The notes under the pieces are model-generated. The model did not search any database. It was given only the letters and a program-made list of their open reading frames with translations, and was not told where the DNA came from. A DNA stretch of 64,000 nucleotides, from the NCBI RefSeq assembly GCF_016593235.1, contig NZ_AP023065.1:310001-374000 (forward strand). The letters run 5' to 3'. Shown here in pieces: positions 3,489 to 14,370 of this stretch. The position numbers and the translations under genes were made by a program. Position 1 is the first letter of the stretch. Each line of letters begins with the position of its first letter. This stretch comes from Nitratiruptor sp. YY09-18 (GTDB lineage: Bacteria; Campylobacterota; Campylobacteria; Campylobacterales; Nitratiruptoraceae).

Positions 3489-4359
3489 TTCTACTCCTTT
3501 GACAAAATCTTTGCATGAGACATCCATAGGCATCGATCCTGCGATCACGTAAAAATGGCCAGATGTCTCTTACTTCTTTTGTGCGTTTCATATCTATTTC
3601 ACAGGTTATTACTTGTTCACTTTTACTATCAGCTTGTATGAGAATCTCTCCTTGTGGTCCACATGCAAAGCTATTGCCCCAAAACCTAATGCCTTTGAGA
3701 CATTCACTATCGTCTTTTTCAAATCCTACCCTATTGACACTGATAAGTGGCAAGCCATTTGCAATGGCATGGGAGCGTTGGATTGTGATCCATGCATCCA
3801 GTTGACGAGATTTTTCATCTTCACTATCTTCATCAAACCATCCGATTGCTGTAGGATAGACGAGAATTTCTGCACCTTTGAGCGCCATAATGCGTGCGGC
3901 TTCAGGAAACCACTGATCCCAGCACACAAGCACACCAAGTCTTCCTATCGATGTATCGACTGGTTCAAAACCAAGATCACCTGGAGTAAAATAGAATTTC
4001 TCATAAAATCCTGGGTCATCTGGAATATGCATCTTCCGATACATCCCTGCTATTTTACCTTTGTCAAAAACAACTGCCGTATTATGATAAAGTCCCGGTG
4101 CCCTCTGTTCAAAGAGACTCGCAACAAGCACAATGTCTTTTGTCTTACTGAGTTTTTGCCAAAAGGCGACATCTTCTTCAAAAGTAGCAGCAAGCTTGAA
4201 ATATGAAGTATCTTCACTTTGGCAAAAATAGGGTCCTTGATGAAGCTCTTGAAGTACGACCAGATCAATCCCTTTGGCTTTATCGATTAGTTCGAGAGTT
4301 TTTGTTATTGTGGCCTCTTTGGAACCATGATATTTTTGTTGTATCAAAGCTACTTTCAT
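3460..4359 (-). CDS. aguB: N-carbamoylputrescine amidase
   Basis: Nitrilase-superfamily enzyme that hydrolyses N-carbamoylputrescine to putrescine, CO2 and ammonia, the second step of the agmatine-to-putrescine route. The catalytic triad is visible as E39 (LQELH), K109 (YRKMHIPDDP) and C146 (LVCWDQWFPEAAR). The 299-residue length and the HIPDDPGFYEKFYFTPGD stretch fit the AguB group. The first enzyme of the route, agmatine deiminase, lies three genes upstream in the same run, which supports the assignment. The ATG overlaps the stop of the ABC permease gene by 4 nt (ATGA), implying translational coupling. Confidence 0.93.
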   Translation of the reverse strand: MKVALIQQKYHGSKEATITKTLELIDKAKGIDLVVLQELHQGPYFCQSEDTSYFKLAATFEEDVAFWQKLSKTKDIVLVASLFEQRAPGLYHNTAVVFDKGKIAGMYRKMHIPDDPGFYEKFYFTPGDLGFEPVDTSIGRLGVLVCWDQWFPEAARIMALKGAEILVYPTAIGWFDEDSEDEKSRQLDAWITIQRSHAIANGLPLISVNRVGFEKDDSECLKGIRFWGNSFACGPQGEILIQADSKSEQVITCEIDMKRTKEVRDIWPFLRDRRIDAYGCLMQRFCQRSRIENKSNKEE

Positions 4360-5147
4360 TTTCTATCCTTTATAATGCTCAATCCAAAAAAGAGTGCAGC
4401 TACAAGAATGATCGAGGCAGTGGCTGAAATATCAAAAGTATTGGCGATAAAAAGACCAACAATTTGAACGATGAGACCTAATATGCCACTTACTATTATC
4501 ATGGAAGCGAAATTTTTGGTGAATTTTTGTGCGATAAATGGCGGGATACTAAGAAGGGCTATAACAAGTATGAGTCCTATTGAACGTATACTCATAACAA
4601 CTGTAAAAGCGATGAGAATGAGTGTAAGAGTATGCAAAAATCCAACAGGCAAACCTCTTGTCTTTGCAAACTCCTTATCATAAGCGATAGCAAGAATATG
4701 ATGATAGAACATCAGTATATAAATGATAAGAATCACATCTACAAAAAACATATAGTATAAGTCGCTTTGAGGTACAAGCAAAATATCACCAAAAAGGTAA
4801 GCCAAAAGGTCTGGATGGTAGCCGGGAGTCAGGTCATTAAAAATAATACCTATACTCATACCTACCGCCCACAAAATACTTATATAGACATCCACATGGC
4901 GATGGGACTTATATGTGAGATAGGCAAAAATGAGAGCAAGGATGAGGGCAAAAATCGTAGCACCAAAAAGTATGGAGATTCCAAAGTAGAGTGCCATCCC
5001 TACGCCCCCATAACTTCCATGGGCGATACTAGCTGCAAGGTAGTTGTAGCGGTTAATAAGCATCACAGAGCCAATAATGGCAATAGCGATACTTAAAAGC
5101 AGGGAAGCAGTAATGGAGTTGGAAAAGAGATGGATAAACTTAAACAT
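4356..5147 (-). CDS. Zinc/manganese-type ABC transporter permease
   Basis: Membrane subunit of an ABC-3 family metal importer (ZnuB/MntB type). The 263-residue protein has seven to nine hydrophobic segments and the family features AASIAHGSYGGVGMALYFG near the N terminus and SIRSIGLILVIALLSIPPF near the C-terminal third. The ATG at 5147 overlaps the ATPase stop codon by 8 nt, which is a better fit than a longer reading from 5198 inside the ATPase gene. The metal cannot be told from the permease. Confidence 0.9.
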   Translation of the reverse strand: MFKFIHLFSNSITASLLLSIAIAIIGSVMLINRYNYLAASIAHGSYGGVGMALYFGISILFGATIFALILALIFAYLTYKSHRHVDVYISILWAVGMSIGIIFNDLTPGYHPDLLAYLFGDILLVPQSDLYYMFFVDVILIIYILMFYHHILAIAYDKEFAKTRGLPVGFLHTLTLILIAFTVVMSIRSIGLILVIALLSIPPFIAQKFTKNFASMIIVSGILGLIVQIVGLFIANTFDISATASIILVAALFFGLSIIKDRK

Positions 5148-5868
5148 TGCATCCCTTTTGTAGCTCTTCAAAGAGATCCATTTCACAAAAATGCTCATCT
5201 GCAGAATGAATATGGATATTAGGTTTGTCGTGAATAAAGAGTTTTCTATTTATATAGAAAACTCTGTCTACACCTTTGAGAATGATATTGATATCGTGAC
5301 TTACAACAAGACGTGTGATAGAGAGCTCTTGCAATATGTGATAGATCTGCCTTTGTGCTTGTAGGTCTACTGATGCAGTTGGCTCATCGAGGATAAGAAT
5401 TTTTGGATCAGTGACAAGAGCCCGGGCAAGGAGCACTCTTTGTCGTTGTCCTCCTGAGAGATCGCTGATCTTTCTTTCTAAAATCTCTTCTATTGCAAGT
5501 TTTGCTGCAATCTCTTCAAGTTTTTTATAGTCTTTTTGATTGAAGCGAAATTTTTTGGGATTGAGCCTTCCTTGGAGTATTATATCTTTTGCCTGCAAGG
5601 GCATATCGAGATTGAAATTGACATTTTGAGGAAGATATCCTATGAATTTTTGTGCTTCTTGCGGAGATTTTCCATAGATAGTGATGCTCCCTTTAGTAGG
5701 TTGGAGTAGTCCTGCTAAAAGACGCAAGAATGTAGTCTTGCCTCCACCATTGGGACCAATGATTGCAATATACTCTTTGTCAAAGATCTGTGCAGTGATA
5801 TCTTCAAGCACATACTCTTTATCGTAGCGAAACCAGAGATTGCGAATATCAATCGCCAAAGATCGCAC
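5140..5868 (-). CDS. Zinc/manganese-type ABC transporter ATP-binding protein
   Basis: ATPase of the metal importer encoded with its neighbours. It has Walker A GPNGGGKTT, a Q-loop in GYLPQNV, signature LSGGQRQR, Walker B ILILDEPTA and the H-loop VVSHD. Candidate starts are TTG 5874, GTG 5868 and TTG 5859, all inside the end of the binding-protein gene; the GTG has GAAGG six bases upstream and is my choice. About 20 nt overlap with the upstream gene suggests coupled translation. Confidence 0.92.
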   Translation of the reverse strand: MRSLAIDIRNLWFRYDKEYVLEDITAQIFDKEYIAIIGPNGGGKTTFLRLLAGLLQPTKGSITIYGKSPQEAQKFIGYLPQNVNFNLDMPLQAKDIILQGRLNPKKFRFNQKDYKKLEEIAAKLAIEEILERKISDLSGGQRQRVLLARALVTDPKILILDEPTASVDLQAQRQIYHILQELSITRLVVSHDINIILKGVDRVFYINRKLFIHDKPNIHIHSADEHFCEMDLFEELQKGCNV

Positions 5869-6661
5869 GGGCAACCTTCACAATATTTTCATCCCACTCA
5901 TATGCCAAAGGGTCAATGACGACTACTTTTGCACCGATGCGCTGAGCTAGAAACTTAGCACTCTTGCGTGGAAATTGTGGCTCTATAAAGATTGTTTTGA
6001 TACCCTCTTTTTTTGCTATTTTTATAATTTTTAGAAGGTCTTGGGATTTTGGCTCTTTGCCTTCATGTTCGATTGCTATTTGTCGAAGATGGTAGACTTT
6101 TGCAAAATAGCCAAAAGATGGGTGGTACACAAGGAAGCTATGGATTGAAGAGTGCAGGCGCATCTGGAAGATCTTTTGGTCTATCGTGCCAATTTTTGCT
6201 ATCAATTTTTGCATATTAGATATATAAATATCAGCATTTTTAGGGTCTCGAAAGCTAAGCTCCTCAGCGATTTTGCGCACTATCTGCACAGCATAATTTG
6301 GAGCAAGCCAGATATGTGGATCTGGGTGGGTGGCTCCATCGTGAGTAAGAGGGAAGCGTTTTGTATACTCTCCGCAGTCGATGATTTTGAGTTTGGGATT
6401 TGCACTTTGGATGCGATCAAGCCACATCCTCTCAAACGGCACTCCGATAGTGAAATAGACTGAAGCTTTTTTAATCGCTTTCAAATCTGAGGGTTTGAGC
6501 GAATAGGTGGCAGGTGAAGCACCTTTAGGGACAAGCGCTTTGACTTCGACTTTGTCATTGGCAATCTGTTCGACGAAATATTTTTGTGGCAGGATCGCGA
6601 CAAGTATCAGCTCTTTGGCAAAAAGAGGTAGTGTAAAAAGTAGCAAAAAGAGTAAACGCAT
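5849..6661 (-). CDS. Metal ABC transporter substrate-binding protein, ZnuA-like with an altered metal site
   Basis: Periplasmic metal receptor of the importer (cluster A-I family, 270 residues) with signal peptide RLLFLLLFTLPLFAKE. Metal-ligand candidates are H116 in HPDPHIWLAP, a histidine in VYHPSFGYF, and the acid in VVVIDPLAYEWDENIV. In ZnuA and relatives the first ligand is the histidine of PHTYEPxPSD; here that segment reads SPATYSLKPSD, with alanine in its place, and the His-rich loop of zinc-specific ZnuA is short. Metal preference may therefore differ from zinc. The ATG at 6661 follows AAAGGA and the stop of aguA. Operon position supports a transport role. Confidence 0.88.
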   Translation of the reverse strand: MRLLFLLLFTLPLFAKELILVAILPQKYFVEQIANDKVEVKALVPKGASPATYSLKPSDLKAIKKASVYFTIGVPFERMWLDRIQSANPKLKIIDCGEYTKRFPLTHDGATHPDPHIWLAPNYAVQIVRKIAEELSFRDPKNADIYISNMQKLIAKIGTIDQKIFQMRLHSSIHSFLVYHPSFGYFAKVYHLRQIAIEHEGKEPKSQDLLKIIKIAKKEGIKTIFIEPQFPRKSAKFLAQRIGAKVVVIDPLAYEWDENIVKVARAIFGD

Positions 6662-6663
6662 CA

Positions 6664-7620
6664 CTATCCTTTAAAAAGATTCATACAGCTACAGTGAATC
6701 GAGCCATGCTGGCGAATGAGTACTGAGGCATCAAGCCCAATGATATCACGAGTTGGAAAAAGTTTTTTAAATATTTTTAGAGCCTCTTCATCATTTGGAT
6801 CTTTGTATGTTGGCATTATTACCGCACCGTTTATTATAACAAAGTTGGCGTAGCTTGCTGGGAGTCGCTCTCCATCAAAAATTTTTGGAGATATAAAAGG
6901 CAATGGCACTAAGTCATATCCAAAGCTTTGCAGCTCTTTCTCCATTTTTTTAAGTGCATTATAATGCATATCCTCTCTATCATCACATGTTATATAAGTG
7001 ATTGTGTGGGGGTTGACAAAACGTGCTAACATATCGATATGACTATCAGTATCATCTCCTTCCAAAAAGCCGTGATTTAGCCACAAAACCTTTTTGAGTC
7101 CAAAGAAGGTTTTGAGTTGCTTTTCAATTTCATCTTTTGATAGATAGGGATTTCTATTAGCTTCCAAAAGGCATTTTGAGGTAGTAAGTAAAACTCCATC
7201 TCCATTGCTATCGATACTGCCCCCTTCTAATACAAAACCAATCTTTTTTGTATAAAAAAGCTTTCTATTAACAAGGTTGTCATAGTTTGCTGGAAATTTC
7301 AGACCCCAGCCATTGAATGTAAAATCAAGAAGTTTTGGTGTGTTGTTGTTAAAAACAGTAATGGGTCCGTAGTCTCGTACCCATGTATCGTTTGTTTGGG
7401 CTTTGAGGATTTTTATATTATGTTTAGTTGGGGGAAAGGTGAGATTTTCCTGTGTGATTAAATAGACATCTTGATAGTGAGCTACAATGGAGATAAACTC
7501 TTTGTAAAACTCTCTTACTTCATCCAAATATGGCAGCCAATCGCTCTTTTTGTGAGGATATGCAAGCAAAAGCGCCTTTTGCTCTTCCCACTCTGCAGGG
7601 AGTCTCATTTGAATAGACAC
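6664..7620 (-). CDS. aguA: Agmatine deiminase
   Basis: Converts agmatine to N-carbamoylputrescine and ammonia in polyamine synthesis. Guanidino-modifying (PPAD) fold motifs are all present: NDTWVRDYGPI, EGGSIDSNGDG, FLEGDDTDSHIDM, and the catalytic cysteine C310 in GSIHC near the C terminus (318 residues). The GTG at 7620 is the longest start; an ATG at 7608 is possible, and neither has an obvious ribosome site. This is the first gene of the minus-strand run that ends with the globin gene and sits directly at the boundary of the AT-rich island. Confidence 0.93.
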   Translation of the reverse strand: MSIQMRLPAEWEEQKALLLAYPHKKSDWLPYLDEVREFYKEFISIVAHYQDVYLITQENLTFPPTKHNIKILKAQTNDTWVRDYGPITVFNNNTPKLLDFTFNGWGLKFPANYDNLVNRKLFYTKKIGFVLEGGSIDSNGDGVLLTTSKCLLEANRNPYLSKDEIEKQLKTFFGLKKVLWLNHGFLEGDDTDSHIDMLARFVNPHTITYITCDDREDMHYNALKKMEKELQSFGYDLVPLPFISPKIFDGERLPASYANFVIINGAVIMPTYKDPNDEEALKIFKKLFPTRDIIGLDASVLIRQHGSIHCSCMNLFKG

Positions 7621-7645: not shown

Positions 7646-9019
7646 TTATTTATTTTTTTCTTCCAGTTCTTTTTTTAATGAATCGTCTGCATACTGTAAA
7701 GCATCTTTACTATCTTTCACAGCAGCCAGAACTACATCTTTATCTTTTTTCAATGAATCATCCGCAAATTGTAAAGCATAGCCATTGCTTTTTACAGCAG
7801 CCAACATAAAATCTTTATCTTTTTTCAATGACTCATCTGCATATTTCAGAGAGGCGCCAAAGTTTTTCACAGCAGCCAGAACTACATCTTTATCTTTTTT
7901 CAGTGAATTATCTGCATATTGCAAAGCATTGCCATTGCTTTTCACAATAGCCAGGACTACATCTTTATCTTTTTTCAATGAATTATCCGCATATTGCAAA
8001 GCTTCGCCATTACATTCCACAGCAGCCAGGACTACATCTTTATCCTTTTTCAGTGAATCATCTGCATATTGCAATACATAGCCATTATGTTTCACAGCAA
8101 TCAGAACTACGACTTTATCCTTTTTCAGTGAGTCATCCGCATATTCCAATGCAGAGCCAGCATTTATATGAGAATTAAGTGCAATTAAGACTACATCTTT
8201 ATCTTTTTTCAGTGAATTATCTGCATATTGCAAAGCATCGCCATTATTTTTCACAGCAGCCAGGACTACATCTTTATCTTTTTTCAGTGAATTATCTGCA
8301 TATTGCAAAGCATCGCCATTATTTTTCACAGCAGCCAGGACTATATCTTTATCTTTTTTCAGTGAATTATCTGCATATTGCAAAGCATCGCCATTATTTT
8401 TCACAGCAGCCAGGACTACATCTTTATCTTTTTTCAGTGAATTATCTGCATATTGCAAAGCATCGCCATTATTTTTCACAGCAGCCAGGACTACATCTTT
8501 ATCTTTTTTCAGTGAATTATCCGCATATATCAAAGAAAATGCATCACTTTTCACGGCGTTAAGCATAAAATTTTTATCTTTTTTCAATGAATTATCTGCA
8601 TATTCTAAAAAAATAGAATTATGTTTCACAGCAGCCAGGACTACATCTTTATCTTTTTTCAGTGAGTCATCCGCATATTTCAAAGCATCGCCATAGTTTT
8701 TCACAGCAGCCAGGACTACATCTTTATCTTTTTTTAGTGAATCATCTGCATATTGCAAAGCATAGCTATAATTTTTTACAATATTTAAAAAAATATTTTT
8801 GTTGGTTTGTAGATCTTTACATATTTTTATTTTATAATCAACAAAACCATTTTGATTTTGTTTCTTTTTTTCTAGTGCTTCTATAAAGCTTTCCTTATCA
8901 CAAACATCTATGTTTTTATCGAATTTTATTGAAAGTATTCCTACAATTATAATTATTACTGCTAATAAGCCTATGAAGGTTTTAAAAATGATTTTTAAAA
9001 ATTTCAAAATTAAATTCAT
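7646..9019 (-). CDS. Membrane-anchored DUF4116 repeat protein
   Basis: Function unknown. Residues about 8-32 form one strong membrane segment (IGLLAVIIIIVGILSIKF). After a short spacer the rest of the 457 residues is 15 tandem repeats of about 25 residues, consensus DVVLAAVKNNGDALQYADNSLKKDK split over two helices; one copy carries a 3-residue insertion. This is the DUF4116 pattern, predicted to build an all-helical solenoid, probably facing the periplasm. Four adjacent repeats are nearly identical even at the DNA level. The ATG follows AAGGAG. Oriented with the agu run but separated by 26 nt; I assign it to the island because of its base composition and lack of any metabolic link. Confidence 0.85.
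   Translation of the reverse strand: MNLILKFLKIIFKTFIGLLAVIIIIVGILSIKFDKNIDVCDKESFIEALEKKKQNQNGFVDYKIKICKDLQTNKNIFLNIVKNYSYALQYADDSLKKDKDVVLAAVKNYGDALKYADDSLKKDKDVVLAAVKHNSIFLEYADNSLKKDKNFMLNAVKSDAFSLIYADNSLKKDKDVVLAAVKNNGDALQYADNSLKKDKDVVLAAVKNNGDALQYADNSLKKDKDIVLAAVKNNGDALQYADNSLKKDKDVVLAAVKNNGDALQYADNSLKKDKDVVLIALNSHINAGSALEYADDSLKKDKVVVLIAVKHNGYVLQYADDSLKKDKDVVLAAVECNGEALQYADNSLKKDKDVVLAIVKSNGNALQYADNSLKKDKDVVLAAVKNFGASLKYADESLKKDKDFMLAAVKSNGYALQFADDSLKKDKDVVLAAVKDSKDALQYADDSLKKELEEKNK
8191..8521. repeat. Four near-perfect tandem copies of a 75-bp unit inside the DUF4116 gene
   Basis: Copies begin at 8191, 8266, 8341 and 8416 (exact 75-bp period) and the match continues into a fifth partial copy to 8521. 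The only difference I see between the four full copies is a C-to-T change at 8344, giving DIV instead of DVV. Flanking repeat units on both sides are diverged. DNA identity this high points to recent expansion by slippage or recombination, or to gene conversion. Confidence 0.95.
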
Positions 9020-9119: not shown

Positions 9120-9959
9120 ATGTTAAATAATGTTTATTATAAAATGAAAATTGCTAAAAAAATTGATTTTTTAAAATTAATATATTTTCTGCTTCTTTTC
9201 ACTTCAATTGATGCTTATTCACAAAAGGAATATTCCATATTCACAGCATCGTCTAATGGCGATTATTATTCACTTGTCATCAAGGCAAATAAAAAGTGTA
9301 ATTTACATTTAAAGCCAGTTGAAACAAGAGGTAGTTTGGATAATATTAAAAAATTAATACATTCTAAGTATCCTACTTATGCAATTGTACAAGGAGATGT
9401 ATTAGATTTTGTTAAAAAAATATCAAATTCTGATATTAAAAATAAAATAAAATATGTAAAAAAATTACAAAATTATACAGAAGCAATTTATGTAATTAGA
9501 AATAAAACTGATAAATCATATCATAAATTAACAAAATTAAATAACAATATTAAAAAAATAAAGAATATAAAACCAATTTCTATAGGTCGTTTTGGTTCTG
9601 GTAGCAGTATAACAGGGTATAATTTACTTACGCCATTAGAATTAAACCCCAATATAGTTTATATGGAAAAAGATGAAGCTTTGAATTCATTATTAAATAA
9701 AAAAATATTAATGATTGTATATGTAGCAAAATATAATAAAAAAAATAACAAAATCGCAAAATGGGTAAGTAATATAATTGCACAATTTCCCCAATATCTT
9801 GAATTAATGGAGATTGATCCTTTGTCATATGGAAAAAACTTTTATCAACAGACAGTCTCTTATAAAAATACAAAATTAATACTTATACCTACATATTTTA
9901 TATCTACAGATTCTGACTCTAAAAAAAATATGGAAATATATCAATGTTTAAATTATTAA
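9120..9959 (+). CDS. TAXI-family periplasmic solute-binding protein, orphan
   Basis: Resembles the TAXI class of TRAP solute-binding proteins. Visible family motifs: a TASSNGDYYSLV phosphate-loop-like start, VETRGSLDNIKKL (family: T-GS-xNI), YAIVQGDVLDF, and IGRFGSGSSITGYNLL. A hydrophobic segment (about 17-31, IYFLLLFTSIDAYS) acts as signal peptide or anchor. At 279 residues it is slightly short for the family. No TRAP membrane subunits lie in the window, so it is not an obvious transporter part. Its end overlaps the next gene, a binding-domain/ion-channel fusion, by 16 nt, so the two are probably co-translated. Start could be ATG 9120 or ATG 9144; neither has a clear ribosome site. I infer a sensory, ligand-presenting role. 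Confidence 0.75.
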   Translation: MLNNVYYKMKIAKKIDFLKLIYFLLLFTSIDAYSQKEYSIFTASSNGDYYSLVIKANKKCNLHLKPVETRGSLDNIKKLIHSKYPTYAIVQGDVLDFVKKISNSDIKNKIKYVKKLQNYTEAIYVIRNKTDKSYHKLTKLNNNIKKIKNIKPISIGRFGSGSSITGYNLLTPLELNPNIVYMEKDEALNSLLNKKILMIVYVAKYNKKNNKIAKWVSNIIAQFPQYLELMEIDPLSYGKNFYQQTVSYKNTKLILIPTYFISTDSDSKKNMEIYQCLNY

Positions 9960-11926
9960 TTTTGTTATTAATAACAATATCTGTTTATGCTGATGAATAT
10001 AAAAAGGTTTTAGTTATAACCAATTACAACCCTTTTAGAGCAGACACAGAAGCATTTAAAAAAGGACTTGATGATGTAAAAAAAGAAATTGAACGTAAAT
10101 ATCCAAAAATAAAAGTAGTTTATACAAATATTTTTATAGATAGAAAAAATAAAAAATTAATAGAAAAAGATATTAATAAACTTGAAAAAATATTAAATGA
10201 TAAATTTCTTTTTATTGTTGCTCCTGGTATATCGAAAGCTTTTGGAACAGTTGCACCTTGCTTACCTAAAGACACACCGATTATAACTGCATCTTCTGCT
10301 ATTGATGAATTACAAAAATTTAAAGGTAATATTTTTTCAACTAGCGACCTTCCAAGGTATTCTAAAGCCAAAGATATTTATAAATTAAAAAAAATAATTA
10401 AATATAAAAGAATTATTAATGTTTATGATAAACAACCAGGAAGCTATCCTATTTATATTTTGAAAGCCTTTGCTAAAGATAATCCCGATATAAAAATAAT
10501 AAATATAAATCTTACCAGTATTAACAAAGGGTTTTTGGACAAATATGGTAATGATGCATTATTTTATATATCTGCAAACGGAACAAAATCTTGTAAGATT
10601 ATTTTTGATAGATTAAATTTTATTATAAAGAATTTAGAATTTTTATATAACAAAAAATATAATATTAGCTACTATTTGTCCTATTTTTCTACTATTTATT
10701 CTTATAAAAATGATAAAAAAGTTTTTTCTAGTTCATCAATTACAAGTAATAAAAAAAATATATTTGAATATGAATATTTAAGACCATTAAAATATAAAAA
10801 TGAAAAGCTTATAAAAAGATATGATCAAGCATTTAGATGGTATTATCCAAAAATACTATTAGGATTAAGAGGGTTAGAAAACTTTGATTTAGATATTAAC
10901 GTTTTACATAGAATTATAATTGACAATCTTAAGAAGACAAATATTTATAATCCATTTGTAGATAAAAGAACTAGATATATTTATGCTTTTGAAAAAAAAG
11001 ATTACAATGGAAGAGAAATATATTTTAATGCCATAAGAAAATATAATATTTTAAAAAACTATCTTTATATATTGAGTTCTGGGCAAAAATTATTAAATCC
11101 AATCCAAATTTTTAATGATTTTAAGTATCATACCATCTATGTCACTCCTCAAATTAAAAAACTAAAAATTCTAACTTTAGATGCTACAAAAGCAAAAGTT
11201 GATTTAGTAATTAGAGCAGCAAGTATCAATAAAAATTTTGAATTTGGCAAAAGTATATTAATGAAATCGGCAAAAAAAGATGATTTCGATATTAAACTTT
11301 TAAGTTCTAGTAAAATAACATTTTTAAATACGCCATTATATTATAAAGTTTATAATATACATTTAATGATCAATATCAATAGTGATTTATTTAAATTTCC
11401 ATATGATAAACAGATAATTAATATTCCTTTCTATCCGAATAATTTTTCTAAAGATCACTATGTAATTCAAATGATAAATGATAAAAACCAATATGACGCA
11501 ACAATCTCAGATAACTGGTTTATAGATAAACATTTTCCAACTTATTCAAGACAAATATATAAAGTTGAAAATGGATTAGATAAAAAGCTAAAAGTTTTAC
11601 TTACGGATATAAATTATTTTACACTTCAAATTAAACGTAAAGATCCTTTGCAAATTATATTGAAATATTTTTTACCAGCAATAATATTACTTTTTATGGC
11701 TATATTTATAGGATACTTCATCTTTAAAAAATATAGTCAAAATCATATTGCCATAATAAGTGATGTTCTTTTGGGAATAATTTCTATCTATTTCATATAT
11801 AGTTTATTGATACAAATTGAAACTTTAATAATTATGGATTTAGTTTTTTATGTAATTATATTTATGGTAATATTATTAATAATTTCAATTTTTATACTAG
11901 AAAAATTAGGATATATCAATAAATAA
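9944..11926 (+). CDS. Periplasmic-binding domain fused to a pentameric ligand-gated ion channel module
   Basis: A 660-residue envelope protein. Residues 1-16 are a signal peptide. About 19-330 resembles a type-1 ABC-substrate-binding fold (KKVLVITNYNP start, ITASSAIDEL, RIINVYDKQPGS hinge). About 390-565 fits the beta-sandwich ligand domain of pentameric ligand-gated channels: FPYDKQ at 485-490 is the conserved Pro-loop (GLIC has YPFDSQ-like sequence), followed by DNWFI and a FTLQIKRKDP segment just before the membrane. TM1 (about 569-594) carries the conserved proline P578; TM2 (about 603-622) would line the pore; TM3 is about 627-652. The protein ends at 660 with no fourth helix, unlike GLIC or ELIC. 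Inferred role: ion flux gated by a periplasmic solute. No search could be run; the Pro-loop/TM1 pattern is the main support. Confidence 0.72.
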   Translation: MFKLLILLLITISVYADEYKKVLVITNYNPFRADTEAFKKGLDDVKKEIERKYPKIKVVYTNIFIDRKNKKLIEKDINKLEKILNDKFLFIVAPGISKAFGTVAPCLPKDTPIITASSAIDELQKFKGNIFSTSDLPRYSKAKDIYKLKKIIKYKRIINVYDKQPGSYPIYILKAFAKDNPDIKIININLTSINKGFLDKYGNDALFYISANGTKSCKIIFDRLNFIIKNLEFLYNKKYNISYYLSYFSTIYSYKNDKKVFSSSSITSNKKNIFEYEYLRPLKYKNEKLIKRYDQAFRWYYPKILLGLRGLENFDLDINVLHRIIIDNLKKTNIYNPFVDKRTRYIYAFEKKDYNGREIYFNAIRKYNILKNYLYILSSGQKLLNPIQIFNDFKYHTIYVTPQIKKLKILTLDATKAKVDLVIRAASINKNFEFGKSILMKSAKKDDFDIKLLSSSKITFLNTPLYYKVYNIHLMININSDLFKFPYDKQIINIPFYPNNFSKDHYVIQMINDKNQYDATISDNWFIDKHFPTYSRQIYKVENGLDKKLKVLLTDINYFTLQIKRKDPLQIILKYFLPAIILLFMAIFIGYFIFKKYSQNHIAIISDVLLGIISIYFIYSLLIQIETLIIMDLVFYVIIFMVILLIISIFILEKLGYINK

Positions 11927-14019: not shown

Positions 14020-14370
14020 TTATATATCAAAAAGGTCTCTTCTGATTTTATCAAAAAGCTCATACTCTTTATTTTGTATGCCATCACTAATAATTATTTC
14101 ATTAATATACATCATCAACCTTGTTTTTTGCATAGGTAATTTTGCCAAAAATTCTTTAATGATTAATATATCGTCACTAATATCATCTTGTCGAAGTGCT
14201 TGTTCAAATAGATCATTTATTCTACTTTGATTTAATTGAAATTCTCTTTCAAAAAAATTAAAAAATTTCTTTTTTTCTCGTTCAGATACAGTACCATCCA
14301 TATTAATCATCTTACCCAAAATATTTGCATAAGCTTTAGAAAGTCTAGTTGTATCTATCATATTTTCCAT
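14020..14370 (-). CDS. TerB-like small cytoplasmic protein
   Basis: A 116-residue all-helical acidic protein. ILGKMINMDGTVSEREKKKF, followed by a helix and the second half-repeat MYINEIIISDGIQNKEYELF, matches the duplicated acidic DG-xxS/N-xxE pattern of TerB-fold proteins that bind metal near membranes. AAAGGA sits 6 nt before the ATG. First gene of a trio with DUF350 and NlpC/P60 genes. The family assignment rests on that pattern only. Confidence 0.65.
   Translation of the reverse strand: MENMIDTTRLSKAYANILGKMINMDGTVSEREKKKFFNFFEREFQLNQSRINDLFEQALRQDDISDDILIIKEFLAKLPMQKTRLMMYINEIIISDGIQNKEYELFDKIRRDLFDI

Follow-up and report, generated by a model that had tools for sequence, protein, structure and literature searches.

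The stretch of DNA analysed here, a 64,000-nucleotide window on one of the two contigs of the 1.76-Mb Nitratiruptor sp. YY09-18 genome, carries a pair of overlapping genes on its forward strand. The first (9120-9959) encodes a TAXI/NMT1-like periplasmic binding protein of the PBP-II class, and its 3′ end overlaps the second gene by 16 nt. The second is a 660-codon ORF with an ATG start (9944-11926, forward strand), and its 660-aa product can be read as a signal peptide, a domain resembling the type I periplasmic binding proteins (PBP-I), an extracellular domain (ECD) like that of pentameric ligand-gated ion channels (pLGICs), and three membrane helices, M1 to M3. The signal peptide, recognized from the sequence, spans residues 1-17 (9944-9994; MFKLLILLLITISVYA). 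Divergent from the pair lies a reverse-strand gene (7646-9019) for a protein of twelve DUF4116 repeats, whose DNA contains a 75-bp tandem array of about 15 copies with 81% matches.

When 150 genomes were queried with the 660-aa protein, a single homologue was recovered, 69% identical and encoded at 8001-9971 of L003, a Campylobacterales MAG contig from a genome of the same family. A profile of the C-terminal part, run against 397 genomes, likewise found no believable copy apart from L003; its weaker matches were rejected as relatives, being copper ATPases, kinases and other membrane proteins. Relatives of the protein were not found in the plasmid and viral collections either, and searches of Pfam, NCBIfam and PDB sequences gave no relevant match. 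Between the two homologues dN is ~0.20 while synonymous sites are near saturation, so the codon comparison indicates that the channel-like gene is under strong purifying selection. On the same grounds, and since the gene is intact in two genera, a pseudogene was rejected.

Several motifs place the C-terminal half among the pLGICs. The Pro-loop, FPYDKQ (residues 485-490; 11396-11413), falls in register with the YPFDSQ and FPFDRQ of known channels in both hhalign and MAFFT alignments, and W525, within DNWFI (523-527), aligns with the beta-9 tryptophan of pLGICs. Downstream, a basic cluster, KRKDP (564-568), leads into M1 (568-596; cluster and helix together at 11633-11731), where P578 follows K566 by 12 residues, the same Arg-to-Pro distance found in 6 of 6 pLGICs measured. 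The distance from P486 to R565 is 79 residues (66-81 in six pLGICs), and that from P486 to the M1 proline is 92 (78-93 in the same number). The putative pore helix, M2 (600-626; 11741-11821), was assigned by alignment and by identity between the homologues; ungapped alignment to GLIC places S606 at 6′ and L609 at 9′, in a register that could shift by one. M3 follows (about residues 632-654; 11822-11905). A preliminary description of this DNA, drawn up from the letters alone, had pointed to the signal peptide, FPYDKQ, DNWFI, KRKDP and a hydrophobic helix with P578, and had put the Pro-loop about 80 residues from the first membrane helix; all of these features are present in the ORF, and the spacing agrees with that of the six channels. 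In the MAFFT alignment the W-x-P motif of loop A is missing, its stretch being absent between beta2 and the Pro-loop.

Profile comparison carries the assignment further. Profiles of pLGICs were built from GLIC (an exact match to PDB chains), ELIC, part of sTeLIC and a Legionella pLGIC (L035), and a pooled version combined GLIC, ELIC, sTeLIC and the Legionella sequence with two Campylobacterota proteins, L036 and L037. Compared by hhalign with the pooled profile, a two-sequence profile of the C-terminal part gave a probability of 91%, an E-value of 1e-6 (for a single comparison) and a score of 51, with the alignment beginning in the strands that precede the Pro-loop and ending where M1 starts. 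The window's C-terminal part as a single sequence still scored 45, whereas none of 120 unrelated ORFs exceeded 27 and none of 60 shuffles exceeded 24. The outcome depended on the profile used: the probability was 54% against the four original pLGICs, and the match was weak against the Campylobacterota sequences alone. The strong match thus comes from the pooled profile and not from the Campylobacterota four-helix pLGICs by themselves. By these controls and shuffles, residues ~391-654 match pLGICs beyond chance.

Structure prediction agrees in fold, at low confidence. AlphaFold, run without templates on residues 380-660, gave a model (pLDDT 48, pTM 0.38) of beta strands followed by three helices, and among the PDB matches listed by Foldseek all 50 of 50 were pLGICs, with probability 1.00 over 208-325 alignment columns; TM-scores to these were ~0.4, which means that the way the model packs its domains is not to be trusted. 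Taken with the hhalign and MAFFT results, the model supports a pLGIC-like extracellular beta-sandwich at about residues 391-566 (11114-11641), one that lacks the loop A W-x-P. It could be argued that this half is simply a generic beta-rich periplasmic domain joined to three helices and that the Pro-loop resemblance is fortuitous, a reading that the low model confidence and the want of any curated family match would favour. Set against it are the controls and shuffles, the Foldseek result and several independent motifs in register, and it was already disfavoured to the point of being very improbable. The search for pLGIC similarity that the preliminary description had called for came out on its side, with the profile score and the Foldseek matches in agreement.

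The N-terminal half resembles, with moderate confidence, the type I periplasmic binding fold. The full-length two-sequence prediction is of low confidence overall (pLDDT 42); it reaches moderate confidence over about residues 18-240 only. In the putative PBP-I part, beta strands and alpha helices alternate, at pLDDT about 60. A Foldseek search with the full-length model matched this half to leucine-binding protein, sugar-binding PBPs, the natriuretic receptor NPR1 and the N-terminal domains of AMPA receptors. A profile of ABC_sub_bind sensor domains from Campylobacterota aligns from the mature N-terminus, a weak match whose score of 30 compares with top scores of 24 among the controls and 25.5 among the shuffles. 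In the comparison with binding-protein profiles that had been proposed for this half, the score stood just slightly above the controls. We place a putative PBP-I domain, a fold of two alpha/beta Rossmann-like lobes, at residues 18 to ~385 (9995-11098), best supported over ~18-240, and infer that residues ~240-385 belong to it as well. Profile comparison with controls, Foldseek searches of template-free models and the register of the motifs together support the fusion of a type-I binding-protein domain to a pLGIC-type module, as originally suggested.

The protein departs from the GLIC-type, four-helix channel of the preliminary description in its membrane part. Hydropathy gives three hydrophobic segments (~576-594, 604-623 and 633-652), followed by 6-8 residues and the stop, and neither hydropathy nor the model reveals an M4 in either homologue; both end after M3, at the same place, the stop in the window lying six residues beyond the helix. 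This ending had gone unnoticed in the preliminary description. M4 is present in all pLGICs aligned here. The next gene begins 11 nt downstream in the window, where it encodes a DUF218 protein (PF02698); in L003 the gap is 23 nt and the gene encodes a TerB protein. No M4 therefore lies concealed close by, and an M4 that is frameshifted or encoded separately was rejected on the same distances and on the difference between the two downstream genes. Both genomes have a TerB-family gene in the vicinity of the channel gene (window 14020-14370, reverse strand; L003 9995-10339, forward strand; proteins 41% identical), although their position and strand differ.

With M4 absent from both homologues, a GLIC-like function of the window protein cannot be assumed. 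ELIC and the Torpedo nAChR tolerate deletion of the C-terminal end of M4, while some other receptors do not (PMC8119899), and a GlyR alpha4 subunit truncated in M4 is non-functional as a homomer (PMC5797729). The main rival explanation, unlikely in our estimate but weightier than the others, is accordingly a pLGIC-derived receptor that lost M4 and no longer conducts, a ligand-binding membrane sensor signalling by conformation or by recruiting a partner. It draws on the shared loss of M4, the non-functional GlyR subunit and the missing loop A, and degenerate Pro-loops do occur in other Campylobacterota relatives, FPLND in L038 and LSLED in L054. It fits poorly with the conservation pattern: identity between the homologues peaks in M1 and M2, at 89% and 93% against 69% overall, and the longest identical run (24 residues, 606-629; SDVLLGIISIYFIYSLLIQIETLI) sits in M2, the most conserved of all, as expected of a pore under selection. 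Nor is M3 followed by an output domain in the cytoplasm, as the chain runs on for just about 6 residues. A channel subunit could instead borrow M4 from another polypeptide or co-assemble with a four-helix subunit. A split GlyR, with ECD and M1-M3 on one chain and M4 on another, can be functionally rescued, according to work cited in PMC5797729; here no conserved neighbour could supply the helix, the downstream genes being DUF218 and TerB, and the pLGIC profile found no other match in the window's genome, which makes borrowing or co-assembly improbable.

The upstream gene is a more constant companion. Its homologue in L003 (7240-8016) is 60% identical and overlaps the channel gene by the same 16 nt, and the two genes are probably co-transcribed. 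The L003 copy matches PF16868 (NMT1_3) with an E-value of 1.7e-4, below the curated cut-off, and the window copy does so weakly. Just 5′ of the pair in L003, on the same strand, a soluble MCP gene overlaps a triple-CheW gene (3782-7037, forward strand). The channel gene of the window has no such genes beside it, and elsewhere in the window's genome the triple-CheW protein finds just a partial match, at 26%. The L003 arrangement fits a chemosensory role without showing one.

On balance, we consider the window gene to encode a subunit of a bacterial pLGIC, highly diverged, with a PBP-I N-terminus and three transmembrane helices, predicted to form a chemosensory channel, and we would give this reading a probability of roughly 0.6. 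Counted against a channel are the empty searches of curated families, the low-confidence models with their TM-scores near 0.4, the missing M4 and loop A, and the MCP and CheW genes that do not adjoin the gene in the window. If the subunits do form a channel, they would sit as a pentamer in the inner membrane with their binding domains facing the periplasm. A small solute, bound directly by the PBP-I clamshell or passed on by the TAXI protein, could alter the clamshell angle; this motion would be transmitted through the beta-sandwich and Pro-loop to the M1-M3 bundle, whose helices would pack without an outer, lipid-facing M4, and would open a pore lined by M2. The resulting ion flux might then serve sensing, possibly chemotaxis. 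That a natural pLGIC of three-helix subunits functions in this way, with a fused type-I clamshell controlling its gate and a co-expressed TAXI protein as partner, is put forward tentatively, as a conjecture somewhat short of an even chance.

Whether M4 is essential in pLGICs is debated, and a selected, naturally M4-less pLGIC would directly test the need for it; if they conduct, the three-helix ending of the window protein and its only known relative would matter. The literature searched, mostly outside subscription journals, gave no description of a pLGIC that naturally has three helices. A PBP-I clamshell mounted on a pLGIC would also parallel the amino-terminal domains of AMPA and NMDA receptors, though the pores are unrelated. 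The pLGICs of unicellular organisms have no known biological role (PMC4795631), and the paired TAXI gene offers a concrete lead to a ligand.

The searches turned up other pLGICs as well. PF02931 found none above its cut-off in 298 Campylobacterota genomes. With the pLGIC profile, clear four-helix pLGICs came up in two Campylobacterota genomes (L036, 800-1837, forward strand, E 1e-19; L037, 1486-2415, reverse strand, E 2e-14) and a weak match in a third (L038, 1420-2406, forward strand). These and a further pLGIC-like four-helix protein, L054, were missed by Pfam or fell below its cut-off. In Legionella adelaidensis, the plasmid-borne L035 (2776-3726, forward strand), annotated as hypothetical, is a pLGIC that scores above the PF02931 cut-off.

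Among known systems, GLIC, ELIC and sTeLIC share with the window protein the order of the ECD strands, the Pro-loop, the base before M1, the M1 proline and the position of M2; unlike it, they have four helices, an intact loop A and no extra N-terminal domain. L036 and L037, from the same phylum, have a YPFD Pro-loop and IQR before M1, and the W-x-P of loop A is absent from them, as it is from L038; they differ in having four helices and no PBP-I domain, and compared directly by profile they match the window protein weakly. The ABC_sub_bind (PF04392) sensor histidine kinases of Campylobacterota (L055-L059) possibly carry the same class of type-I periplasmic sensor domain, although the similarity is weak and their output is a kinase. 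DeCLIC (6v4s, 7q3g), a Foldseek match of the C-terminal model, is likewise a pLGIC whose N-terminus carries a large regulatory domain in the periplasm, but that domain consists of two jelly rolls and not a PBP-I fold, and DeCLIC has an M4. Close parallels are the ART-LGICs of M. magnetotacticum and B. japonicum, in which Tasneem et al. 2004 (PMC549065) described an N-terminal PBP-I followed by a pLGIC ECD and transmembrane helices, as here. The same authors found stand-alone PBP-II genes in operons with other bacterial pLGICs, much as the TAXI-like gene adjoins the channel gene at this locus, and proposed a part in chemotaxis. The principle was thus already known, and the core claim of the preliminary description was right without being new. 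The PBP-I-fused ART-LGICs keep a four-helix core, whereas the window protein has three helices, has lost loop A and escapes Pfam, and its locus, unlike theirs, combines a PBP-I fusion with an operonic PBP-II gene. What differs here is the three-helix membrane part, the fusion and its PBP-II partner occurring together, and the strong divergence of the protein.
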